IMG/VR virus record: IMGVR_UViG_3300030060_004627
Span: 1 to 25,212 of that record
Length of the DNA: 25,212 nt
From: a virus
Strand: one strand, 5' to 3'
How positions within the stretch are numbered: the stretch's first letter is position 1; each line of letters starts with the position of its first letter. The notes below the pieces were generated by a model. It was not told the DNA's origin, searched no databases, and was given only the letters and a program-made list of their open reading frames with translations. The position numbers and the translations under genes are program-made. Positions 9,674 to 12,588 of the stretch are shown here, one piece after another.

Positions 9674-9910
9674 TTAAGCTTTCTTTTTAAGAATGTGGTA
9701 TAAAACTCCAGCACCTACTAAACCAAGTAGACCTTCGTTACTCAATCCACCTAATATACCCATAATGTTTTCCACTACAGATACCTCAGGCCAGAAAGGA
9801 ATCGCCGCACCTTTGAATAGTACTTCTAATACTACACCAAGAGCGATAACACTTATACCGATTTCTGTTAGATGATTAGCCCAATCGCCAATCTTTTTAA
9901 GAAATTCCAT
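9674..9910 (-). CDS. Small two-helix membrane protein, holin-like
   Basis: The protein has 78 residues: MEFLKKIGDWANHLTEIG, then a first hydrophobic segment (~17-36, ISVIALGVVLEVLFKGA), a Trp/Pro turn (AIPFWPEVS), and a second hydrophobic segment (~52-73, GILGGLSNEGLLGLVGAGVL) before a KKK tail. Size, two helices and charged C-terminus are consistent with a class II-type holin, but no family is recognised. Its ribosome-binding site AGAGGAG about 7 bases before the ATG is among the best in the window, implying high expression. It is flanked by its own terminator and a long leader, and the candidate lysis enzyme lies at 12856-13434, so a lysis role is inferred only. Confidence 0.75.
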   Translation of the reverse strand: MEFLKKIGDWANHLTEIGISVIALGVVLEVLFKGAAIPFWPEVSVVENIMGILGGLSNEGLLGLVGAGVLYHILKKKA

Positions 9911-10057
9911 ATATTACTCCTCTGTTTAAAATTAATGAAAATAACTTTTCCATATTACAAAACATCGGACTGTCCAGCTTATAACTATAGTATATATTAA
10001 ATAAAAAGTATGTTTTTTAATTTCACACCCAATGGGCAAACAATATTAGGTGTCAAA
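9911..10057 (-). promoter_or_regulatory. Long untranslated leader of the holin-like gene
   Basis: About 147 bases with no ORF. In gene direction it contains the ACACC/GGTGT complementary pair around a 19-base loop (10024-10052), an A/T-rich stretch with TATATACTATAG that might be a -7 region but lacks a convincing -33 TTG, and a short perfect dyad GGAC-A-GTCC (9967-9975). The leader ends in AGAGGAG before the ATG. A regulated or structured 5' leader is plausible; no known riboswitch is recognised. Confidence 0.4.
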
Positions 10058-10084
10058 CAAAAAACCCAACCTTACGGGGTTGGG
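10058..10084 (-). terminator. Rho-independent terminator of putative small RNA
   Basis: A perfect 7-bp stem CCCAACC / GGTTGGG with the loop CCGTAA is followed by TTTTTTG in the direction of transcription. It is about 105 bases past the carbamoyltransferase stop and ends the non-coding interval next to that gene. It could also terminate read-through of the carbamoyltransferase operon. Confidence 0.88.
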
Positions 10085-10182
10085 CTTTGTTATCCAATCA
10101 CTTTGAATTACGACTGGTTCTTTAGAGCTACTAAGTTTATCAATCTCCACACATCTGTCTACAATTGTTGAGCCCTACAAGT
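10058..10182 (-). ncRNA. Putative phage small RNA (about 120 nt)
   Basis: A stretch of ~125 bases with no usable ORF (the only ATG opens a 4-codon frame) lies between a candidate late promoter motif (10183-10190) and a strong intrinsic terminator (10058-10084). The sequence is less A/T-biased than neighbouring spacers and contains GTAGGGCTCAAC and a near repeat GTAGCTCTAAAG 48 bases later. It does not fold into an obvious tRNA cloverleaf and I see no known RNA family. The alternative is simply a long 3' UTR of the carbamoyltransferase operon. Transcript and function are inferred. Confidence 0.5.
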
Positions 10183-10190
10183 TATAAATA
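10183..10190 (-). promoter_or_regulatory. Candidate late promoter motif (ATATTTATA) before putative small RNA
   Basis: Plus-strand TATAAATA; in gene direction TAATATTTATAACTTG. It abuts the stop codon of the carbamoyltransferase gene (10191) and precedes about 120 non-coding bases ending in an intrinsic terminator. No -33 TTG is visible. It would place a transcript start near 10175-10180. Confidence 0.45.
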
Positions 10191-11900
10191 TTAGATTATT
10201 TTCTTAGAAATAAAAATATTATCAACTACTAAGAAGTCCATATCACAATTCATAAAGGTATCAATAGCTTCTTGCGTATCTCTAACCATAGTTTGGTCTT
10301 TTAAATTAAATGATGTATTAAGTAGTATTGGATACTTTGTAATCTTTTGATATTCTTTTAATAGTGCATACATCTTAGGATTAAAATCTTCTCTAAGTGT
10401 TTGTACTCTAGCTGAACCATCGGTGTGTGTAATAGCTGGTAATTTTTCTCTATGTTTTGGTTTTACCGAAACAATTTGATTCATATATGGTATCTCTATA
10501 TTGGGTGTAAAGAAGTGTTTCATATCTTCGTAAGTAACCATTGGAGCGAACGGTCTGAATCCCTCTCTTTTCTTTACTACCATATTTACCCTCTTCTTCA
10601 TTTGTGGGTCTCTTGGGTCTGCTAAGATAGAACGATTACCTAATGCTCTTGCACCAAATTCTAATTGACCTCTAACCCAACCAATGATGTTTCCTTCTGA
10701 TATAAGTTTAGCTACTTTAGGAAGTAACTCTTTATCAGATAATGCTTCATAAAATATTTTTTCATCATTCTCTTTTACAATTTTTACAATATCTAATAAC
10801 TTTTCAGATGGACCTAAGAATGGTGATTTATTTTGTTTCCTGTCATTTGTAATATGATTCCAATAGTTAAGAGCTGCTCCAATAGCAGAACCAGCATCAG
10901 ATGGAGCTGGTGGAATCCAAATATTTTTAAATGGAGTTTTACTTTGTATCTTACCATTAGCCGTTCCGTTATATGCACATCCACCACTTAAACATAAGTT
11001 TTTAGATTTAGTTTTTTTATATAACTTATTTAGTAATTTAAAGAAATGCTTTTCATATGTGTATTGTAAAGCTGCTGATATATTTTTATGTATATCATTA
11101 ATTGGTTCTTCGGGTAATCTATTTGGTATTTCTAATAGTTTAGATAATTTTGTATTGAACATAATCTTATCAGAATAGTGATAAGAGAAATATTCCATAT
11201 TTAGTTCAAATCCATCTTCCGTTTCTTTTATTAGTTCATCAAACTTTTTATGATGAAATAGATGAGTACCATATGGTGCCAATCCCATAACTTTATACTC
11301 ACCTTCATTTGGTTTGAATCCTAAGAAAGCAGTAATTGTAGAATAAAGTAATCCTAATGAGTGTGGATACACTACTTCACTATGTCTTTTTATTATGTTA
11401 TCTTTACCACTTGCTAATACAGTAGTATCCCATTCACCAACACCATCTACTGATAGTATAGCTGATTCATCAAAATCTGAGGTAAAGTATGAATATGCTA
11501 AATGAGATAAGTGATGATTACCAATGAAAACTTTAGCATTAGGAAATATGTAATCAAAATGTTCTAGTGGATTTGTTTTCTTTGGAAACTTAAATGGATT
11601 CTTCCAAAAGTATTTCCAATAAGATTTCCAATCTCTATCGTATTTTAGTTTTGGATTCTCATAGTAACATACTGCAGAAATATCTTTTCCACCAATATTG
11701 TTATTTTTCAAAATCCAATTAATAGAGTTTATTGGAAAACTATTATCGTGTTTTATACCAGTAAATCTCTCTTCTTCTACTGCGTTTAAAACTTGTCCAT
11801 TCTGTATTAGTGCTACTGCTGAGTCGTGAAATCCAAAAGAGATTCCGATAATGTACTTATCATTGATGTTCTTCATTCCAAAACTGATTTGGGTTTTCAT
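10191..11900 (-). CDS. NodU/CmcH-family O-carbamoyltransferase
   Basis: The protein has 569 residues from ATG 11900, or 561 from the more family-like ATG 11876 (MKNINDKYIIGISFGFHDSA), which overlaps the sigma-factor gene by only 17 bases. NodU/CmcH/TobZ enzymes move a carbamoyl group from carbamoyl phosphate, through carbamoyl-adenylate, to a hydroxyl. Visible motifs are the N-terminal G-x-S-F-G-F-H-D-S-A and EEERFTGIKHD, the mid SGGCAYN and PPAPSDAGSAIGAA, then the C-terminal-domain motifs ARALGNRSILADPRDP, FRPFAPMV and LLNTSFNLKDQTMV. Both the Kae1-like and YrdC-like halves appear complete. Substrate is unknown: a surface glycan, a virion sugar or a hydroxylated DNA base are all options. 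It is the last gene of the lysis/sigma operon. Confidence 0.92.
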   Translation of the reverse strand: MKTQISFGMKNINDKYIIGISFGFHDSAVALIQNGQVLNAVEEERFTGIKHDNSFPINSINWILKNNNIGGKDISAVCYYENPKLKYDRDWKSYWKYFWKNPFKFPKKTNPLEHFDYIFPNAKVFIGNHHLSHLAYSYFTSDFDESAILSVDGVGEWDTTVLASGKDNIIKRHSEVVYPHSLGLLYSTITAFLGFKPNEGEYKVMGLAPYGTHLFHHKKFDELIKETEDGFELNMEYFSYHYSDKIMFNTKLSKLLEIPNRLPEEPINDIHKNISAALQYTYEKHFFKLLNKLYKKTKSKNLCLSGGCAYNGTANGKIQSKTPFKNIWIPPAPSDAGSAIGAALNYWNHITNDRKQNKSPFLGPSEKLLDIVKIVKENDEKIFYEALSDKELLPKVAKLISEGNIIGWVRGQLEFGARALGNRSILADPRDPQMKKRVNMVVKKREGFRPFAPMVTYEDMKHFFTPNIEIPYMNQIVSVKPKHREKLPAITHTDGSARVQTLREDFNPKMYALLKEYQKITKYPILLNTSFNLKDQTMVRDTQEAIDTFMNCDMDFLVVDNIFISKKII

Positions 11901-12588
11901 CTATTACTTCACCTTCTAAAAATGCATTTAACATTTTCTTTTGATGTTGTTTCATCACATTTACAACCTTTGTAATGTAGTGAGTTTTACAATCAGTCAT
12001 TTCTCTGATTAGTAAGTATAAATGTTTTTTATTAAAGTTTTCTATATAATCTGCTCTTCTAAATAGTTCTAATACTGCATCTGCTATTTGGATATCTCTT
12101 TTCTTTGTAAATACAAGTGTAAGGTTTTTATCCCAATATCCCAACATTATTTTTCTAAACTCAGAGTATTCTTCATTTTGTTGAGTTTCATAATAATCGT
12201 TTTGGGGATTCCAAGTTTGAGGCATTTCAGATATCAATGCGTTCTTCTGCCACCTTTTGTAATTACCATTATTATTTAGAATCAGATAATTTTTTGCTAT
12301 GATTGTGAAATAAGAAAATGCTTTACCTTTACCTTCTTTGTACATATGCATTTTTTCTACCATAGCTGATACTACTTCTTTTTTAATATCAGATTTGGGT
12401 ACATCAAAGTAAGTAAATTTAAATGTATTTAAAACATTTTCTGCTAATTTCGCAAAAGGATATTTTATACCTTCATTGTATATTTTATTTTTTTCCTTTT
12501 GGTCTGTACATTTGTTATACGCAATAATAGCATCTTGCGCAGGAGTACCAAAATACATTTTGGATTTTTTTCTTCTTGGTCTTGGCAT
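11860..12588 (-). CDS. 55: Late-transcription sigma factor, gp55-like
   Basis: The protein has 242 residues; T4 gp55 has 185. Gp55 is the phage sigma subunit that directs host RNA polymerase to late promoters and recognises only a -10-like box. Layout matches: a basic N-terminus (RPRRKKSKMYFG), a region-2-like helical block (DAIIAYNKCTDQKEKNKIYN; YPFAKLAENVLNTFKFTYFD; KEVVSAMVEKMHMYKEGKGK) and the typical AFSYFTIIAKNYLI aromatic stretch (~residues 90-103), followed by a less conserved C-terminal half containing helices. Its C-terminal 41 bases (17 with the later start) overlap the carbamoyltransferase gene. The call rests on motif style and T4-like context rather than close identity. Confidence 0.75.
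   Translation of the reverse strand: MPRPRRKKSKMYFGTPAQDAIIAYNKCTDQKEKNKIYNEGIKYPFAKLAENVLNTFKFTYFDVPKSDIKKEVVSAMVEKMHMYKEGKGKAFSYFTIIAKNYLILNNNGNYKRWQKNALISEMPQTWNPQNDYYETQQNEEYSEFRKIMLGYWDKNLTLVFTKKRDIQIADAVLELFRRADYIENFNKKHLYLLIREMTDCKTHYITKVVNVMKQHQKKMLNAFLEGEVIDENPNQFWNEEHQ

Follow-up and report, generated by a model that had tools for sequence, protein, structure and literature searches.

Background

Bacterial sRNAs derived from the 3′ ends of mRNAs are transcribed from a promoter inside the coding sequence and have the terminator of the mRNA in common with it (review PMC9438474). Small RNAs are also known from phages, among them OOP and PreS of lambda, sar of P22 and c4 of P1/P7, and cyanophages carry the wcaG and manA RNA elements, which are cis elements of metabolic genes (review PMC12197685). 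In T4, late promoters have a TATA box about one helical turn upstream of the transcription start (PMC2988020).

Here we present the analysis of a short intergenic interval in an uncultured T4-like ocean virus (IMG/VR record IMGVR_UViG_3300030060_004627). The window, which is the whole stretch of DNA analysed, spans 25,212 nucleotides and its minus strand is the coding strand. To our knowledge, virulent T4-like phages have so far yielded few sRNAs, and marine ones fewer still. Our preferred reading, to which we assign a probability of roughly 60 %, is that the interval is a small-RNA gene in which a phage-type promoter is followed by an RNA of about 120 nt consisting of a 5′ stem (P1), a hairpin (H2) and a terminator. 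That a putative RNA gene exists at this locus is well supported by the comparison of relatives.

The locus resembles bacterial 3′-end sRNA genes in that relatives carrying an overlapping open reading frame (ORF) have the promoter-like motif within the coding sequence and the predicted RNA ends at the terminator of the gene. It differs from them in being phage-encoded, in having lost the parent ORF in the window and in other lineages, and in that the RNA start is predicted. Like lambda OOP and PreS, P22 sar and P1/P7 c4, which are short non-coding phage transcripts of about 70-120 nt, the RNA predicted here is short and non-coding; the described RNAs, however, have experimental support and known targets, whereas the present one is predicted, has a T4-like promoter type and matches no Rfam family. 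It shares with the wcaG and manA elements that it is a structured RNA of marine phages, and differs from them in forming a promoter-to-terminator unit, again without an Rfam match. Because the architecture is that of 3′-end and phage sRNAs and no Rfam family matches, the candidate is best placed as a new family within the known class of phage sRNAs. Its most unusual property is that, at one and the same locus, the candidate is embedded in an ORF in some phages and stands alone in others.

The locus offers a compact and well-delimited sRNA candidate with about 50 natural variants, in which the coexistence of ORF-overlapping and ORF-free states makes the passage from a 3′-end sRNA to an independent gene a directly testable question. 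Together, the motif ATAYTTATA and the implicated gp55-like sigma factor, both predicted, provide a handle on late transcription in an uncultured phage group.

Results

Layout of the locus

All features described below are on the minus strand. The interval lies between a carbamoyltransferase gene upstream (10191..11900; PF02543/PF16861, phrog_1601) and a gene of 78 codons downstream (9674..9910), which has no family match in Pfam or PHROGs and served as synteny anchor. The initial annotation had proposed, directly after the carbamoyltransferase stop, a late-type motif, some 95 ORF-free bases and a terminator with a 7-bp stem and a T tract, and each of these elements was recovered. The promoter-like motif ATATTTATA, of phage late type, occupies 10183..10191 and adjoins the TAA of the carbamoyltransferase ORF. 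The interval holds no minus-strand ORF longer than 14 codons, and this longest frame has no ribosome-binding context. The intrinsic terminator with its T tract (10053..10088) is built from CCCAACC/GGTTGGG followed by TTTTTTGTTT at 10088-10061; its stem has 7 bp, or 11 when flanking pairs are counted, and it is kept in relatives. Between 9500 and 10700 there are 5 terminator-like sites against 0.5 expected. The statements that the interval is not a tRNA and is less A/T-biased than other spacers also hold: a tRNA/tmRNA search of the interval found none, and its GC content is 37-40 % compared with 9-27 % in the other spacers.

The predicted small RNA of about 120 nt extends from the promoter motif to the terminator (10057..10178). 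Its putative 5′ stem P1 pairs TAGGGCT (10171..10177) with AGCTCTA (10123..10129). The near-repeat of GTAGGGCTC and GTAGCTC noted in the initial annotation is real, and is better explained by the two arms of P1, which resemble each other because AGCT is self-complementary. Hairpin H2, CCAGUCGU-AAUUCAAA-GUGAUUGG, follows at 10094..10117 with its loop at 10102-10109 and sits between P1 and the terminator. Folded as a single sequence the interval is unexceptional (z = -1.27), so the case rests on comparison across relatives. Rfam covariance models gave no match in the window at gathering score, and in relatives only weak matches away from the locus, with E up to 1, in L159.

A conserved hairpin with covariation

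Syntenic loci were collected by the dozen from IMG/VR scans with the carbamoyltransferase and with the downstream 78-aa gene. Conservation of H2 extends to about 50 distinct sequences from marine phages (50 collected), and the hairpin always stands directly 5′ of a terminator; most relatives have the form CUAAUCGU-AAUUCAAA-GUGAUUAG. Some of these sequences were retrieved with search patterns in which certain H2 bases are preset, so that conservation there is partly by construction, and the loci found through the carbamoyltransferase or the 78-aa protein are free of this bias. Covariation and a conserved loop are seen in sets of 33 and 26 distinct sequences. Among the 33, 97.5 % of cells are paired and two pairs have changed on both sides, or three once the divergent L214 is included, in a hairpin that varies at few pairs and in sequences many of which are closely related. 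The covariation score exceeds those of all 500 shuffles and of every slid control; as the shuffles retain relatedness, these ranks are not probabilities. H2 is, on these data, a conserved structure with covariation.

The initial annotation had set covariance analysis across related phages beforehand as a check on an RNA of this kind, and the prediction came through it, with H2 and the terminator kept in about 50 distinct sequences, base pairs in which both partners have changed, and a promoter-like motif preceding H2. Its proposal of a phage sRNA of about 120 nt thereby gained support from the conservation and covariation in relatives, while the origin in a protein gene and the H2 core had been overlooked.

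H2 could instead act as DNA, as a palindrome bound by a protein or used for recombination at a hot spot of gene swapping. The locus is indeed a swap site, with relatives carrying different ORFs upstream and downstream of H2. The departures from Watson-Crick pairing, however, are of the kind expected of RNA: read on the minus strand they comprise 51 G-U cells and hardly any C-A (a single one), and the minus strand also carries the terminator that follows H2. RNA made from the minus strand would fit this imbalance better than a DNA palindrome, and we regard the DNA element as very improbable.

P1 is more variable and differs between groups. In the P1 subgroup 93 % of its cells are paired, a figure that partly reflects coding constraint and comes from a set in which L257 is misaligned. 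The free-standing copy of L257 has TAGAGTA/TACTCTA, in support of the stem.

Three specific roles for these elements were considered and set aside. Mimicry of a tRNA T-loop, suggested by TTCAAA in the H2 loop, is ruled out by the L140 group, which has AUAACAAA. An attenuator pairing of GGGCU with AGCCC of the terminator would be possible in the window and is not conserved, since relatives have TAGAGCT. Finally, complementarity to the loop does not point to a phage target: matches to CGTAATTCAAAGTG elsewhere in the window all have three mismatches and do not exceed chance.

A promoter-like motif and its possible reader

In the window ATATTTATA occurs four times, always on the coding strand and always between genes; three copies lie 29-38 nt before ORF starts and the fourth is that of the interval. 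The count itself, 4 against 3.8 expected, is not above chance, and it is strand and position that stand out. Across 27 sources of the clade TATTTATA is the commonest 8-mer in the 12-60 nt before genes and clusters about 30 nt before their starts; it is therefore probably the promoter of these phages. A control with 55 permutations of the motif letters, each having at least 10 occurrences, is led by the motif (69 %) and its one-base shift ATATTTAT (71 %), with a median of 7 %, and the strand bias of ATA(C/T)TTATA is 77:7. From these motif statistics, ATATTTATA is probably the promoter of the predicted RNA. Copies of ATA(C/T)TTATA on the coding strand of the window include those at 7123-7115, 9609-9601 and 20178-20170.

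Like the T4 late promoter (PMC2988020), this is an A/T motif of 8 bp shortly before genes, and a second element was not needed in the test made here. The two differ in sequence, the sense motif of the clade being ATA(C/T)TTATA and that of T4 TATAAATA, at an equivalent position before genes. A search for TATAAATA on the coding strand of the window found no occurrence, hence no T4 late promoter in sense. ATA(C/T)TTATA is the reverse complement of the T4-like TATAAATA and so stands in the opposite orientation to the T4 late promoter relative to genes. By analogy with T4 late promoters, in which the TATA box precedes the start by about one helical turn (PMC2988020), the RNA would start near 10178.

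The association of the motif with H2 extends across relatives. ATAYTTAT is found 19-82 nt upstream of H2 in 47 of 50 loci. Where the overlapping ORF is intact the motif lies inside the coding sequence as TAT ACT TAT, and these codons are identical in 20 of the 20 ORFs that have Tyr-Thr-Tyr there, while many other conserved codons vary. The ORF of L288 has Trp-Thr-Ser at this site, and ATATTTAT stands directly before H2 instead. ORF homologues without H2 (L154, L158, L160 and kin) lack the motif too. A spacing of 19 nt between motif and H2 is seen in L151, L157 and L288; the predicted RNA there barely exceeds H2 and terminator, which marks these two as the core.

The main rival to a separate RNA is a cis-acting 3′ UTR, in which H2 and the terminator would end the mRNA of the carbamoyltransferase (or of the ORF), as a shield against 3′ exonucleases or a protein site that tunes stability, and no functional separate sRNA would be made. 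H2 always comes immediately before the terminator, and the carbamoyltransferase is upstream in all syntenic loci. Because the window has no other terminator separating the carbamoyltransferase from the interval, the carbamoyltransferase mRNA would share the 3′ end of the interval. The initial annotation had offered sRNA and 3′ UTR as alternatives, and here the two are not exclusive. A 3′ UTR does not, however, account for the conservation of the promoter-like motif along with H2, even where it falls on fixed codons of the ORF, nor for the relocated motif of L288, and as a full explanation we consider it unlikely. Under the preferred reading of a small-RNA gene, the RNA would be transcribed separately and late.

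A candidate reader of the motif is encoded next to the carbamoyltransferase. The predicted structure of the 242-aa product of 11860..12588 has T4 gp55 (7d7c_F) as its best aligned chain (Z 11.5, rmsd 9.9 over 128 residues, pLDDT 69.6), and most other rows of the structure comparison are sigma factors; the model has moderate confidence and Foldseek E values are above 0.1. Helical proteins give high structure-comparison scores by default. Sequence-profile searches with this protein were negative and it has no PHROGs or Pfam annotation, so that the resemblance to gp55 comes from structure comparison only. We take the model as suggestive of a gp55-like sigma factor, which would probably read ATATTTATA. 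With this predicted gp55-like protein encoded nearby, the locus would resemble the T4 late promoter and gp55 system. A T4-type prohead protease was found, in line with T4-like kinship. Flavobacterium phage immuto and Microcystis phage Mel-JY01 encode homologues of the 242-aa protein, which carry the annotation 'hypothetical'.

An overlapping gene and persistence without it

In L004, L005, L007 and others an intact gene of about 116-125 codons lies between the carbamoyltransferase and the 78-aa gene. The window and L001-L003 have only its last ~70 bases left, with an in-frame TAG; in the window this remnant, at 10108..10176, can be aligned to the terminal part of the intact L004, L005 and L007 ORFs. 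Judged by these alignments, the interval is mostly the decayed 3′ end of that gene. An intact parent gene that overlaps the RNA and has the terminator in common with it is thus found in relatives such as L004, L005 and L007 and not in the window, where the parent is a remnant and the copy consequently free-standing. The encoded protein (L004 5217-5567 and relatives) is a small predicted secreted protein of about 116-125 aa with an N-terminal signal-like segment; it has no family match and was repeatedly gained or lost at the locus.

Such a history could also leave a neutral remnant, a functionless decayed 3′ end of the deleted ORF together with the ordinary terminator of that gene, and the alignment of the interval with the ORF end and its in-frame stops are what this would predict. 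Part of H2, however, lies beyond the ORF stop, its pairs are maintained where both partners have changed, and several lineages still have it after losing or replacing the ORF, which makes a neutral remnant improbable.

The unit of motif, H2 and terminator persists whether the overlapping ORF is present, lost or replaced; it stands alone in L257, L115, the L140 group, the L159/L156 group and the group of the window. When these states are mapped onto a tree of the carbamoyltransferase, 11 changes are required for the free-standing label (no fewer than 9 if only supported branches count) and at least 12 for the ORF-carrying label, with L214 scored as ORF-only despite its divergent H2; recombination may inflate these counts. 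The carbamoyltransferase is upstream of H2 in 101 of 101 carbamoyltransferase-bearing loci that have H2. The RNA is absent from L141/L143/L147 and from L154/L158/L160 and kin, and is therefore dispensable, not essential. The gap that separates the carbamoyltransferase from the 78-aa gene is a swap spot, with different genes flanking H2 (L227, L006/L008, L115).

A covariance model of the RNA finds one strong copy, at this locus, in each of nine longer records that carry it. Weaker extra matches in the clade's own records were presumed, as a group, to be terminators because the model contains the terminator. In the nearest cultured relatives, model R1 scored no more than 24 bits (Flavobacterium phage immuto) or found nothing (Microcystis phage Mel-JY01), and LR756508 had no match either; blastn of the DNA against cultured phages gave chance-level matches only, and the 78-aa gene had no match in cultured phages.

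At the level of sequence, the comparison demonstrates the architecture, its conservation and covariation, the association with the motif and the persistence without the ORF. The mechanism we propose builds on these. The RNA would start near 10178 from ATATTTATA, whose probable reader is the gp55-like sigma of the adjoining gene, and the transcript of about 120 nt would fold into the variable 5′ stem P1, the conserved hairpin H2 with its loop AAUUCAAA, and the terminator. The RNA would have arisen in, or been captured into, the 3′ end of the small protein gene, of which this phage would have deleted all but the last ~70 bases while retaining the RNA unit. In our reading the RNA probably acts in trans, with the exposed H2 loop either base-pairing or binding a protein. 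We put forward more tentatively, at somewhat short of even odds, that this is a new family of late phage regulatory RNAs with a wide distribution among uncultured T4-like marine phages, which started out as the 3′ end of a small protein gene or was captured by one, repeatedly outlived that gene as a free-standing RNA gene and works in trans via its conserved hairpin loop.

Further observations

On the minus strand of L094, near position 950, the same H2 loop is carried by a different, fully paired stem, TTCAATC/GATTGAA, before a terminator; this copy follows an unrelated gene, lacks the motif and is either a chance match or a second context. Just past the terminator in the window is a third inverted repeat, ACACCTAAT...ATTGGGTGT (10021-10056, minus strand), with apparently compensatory changes in L131 (ACACTCGAT...ATCGGTGT); it is possibly an operator or leader hairpin of the 78-aa gene. 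The leader of that gene, TATACTATAGTTATT...GGACAGTCCGATGTTTTGTAATATGGAAAAGTTATT (window 9911-10000, minus strand, and L130-L182), is strongly conserved across distant relatives.
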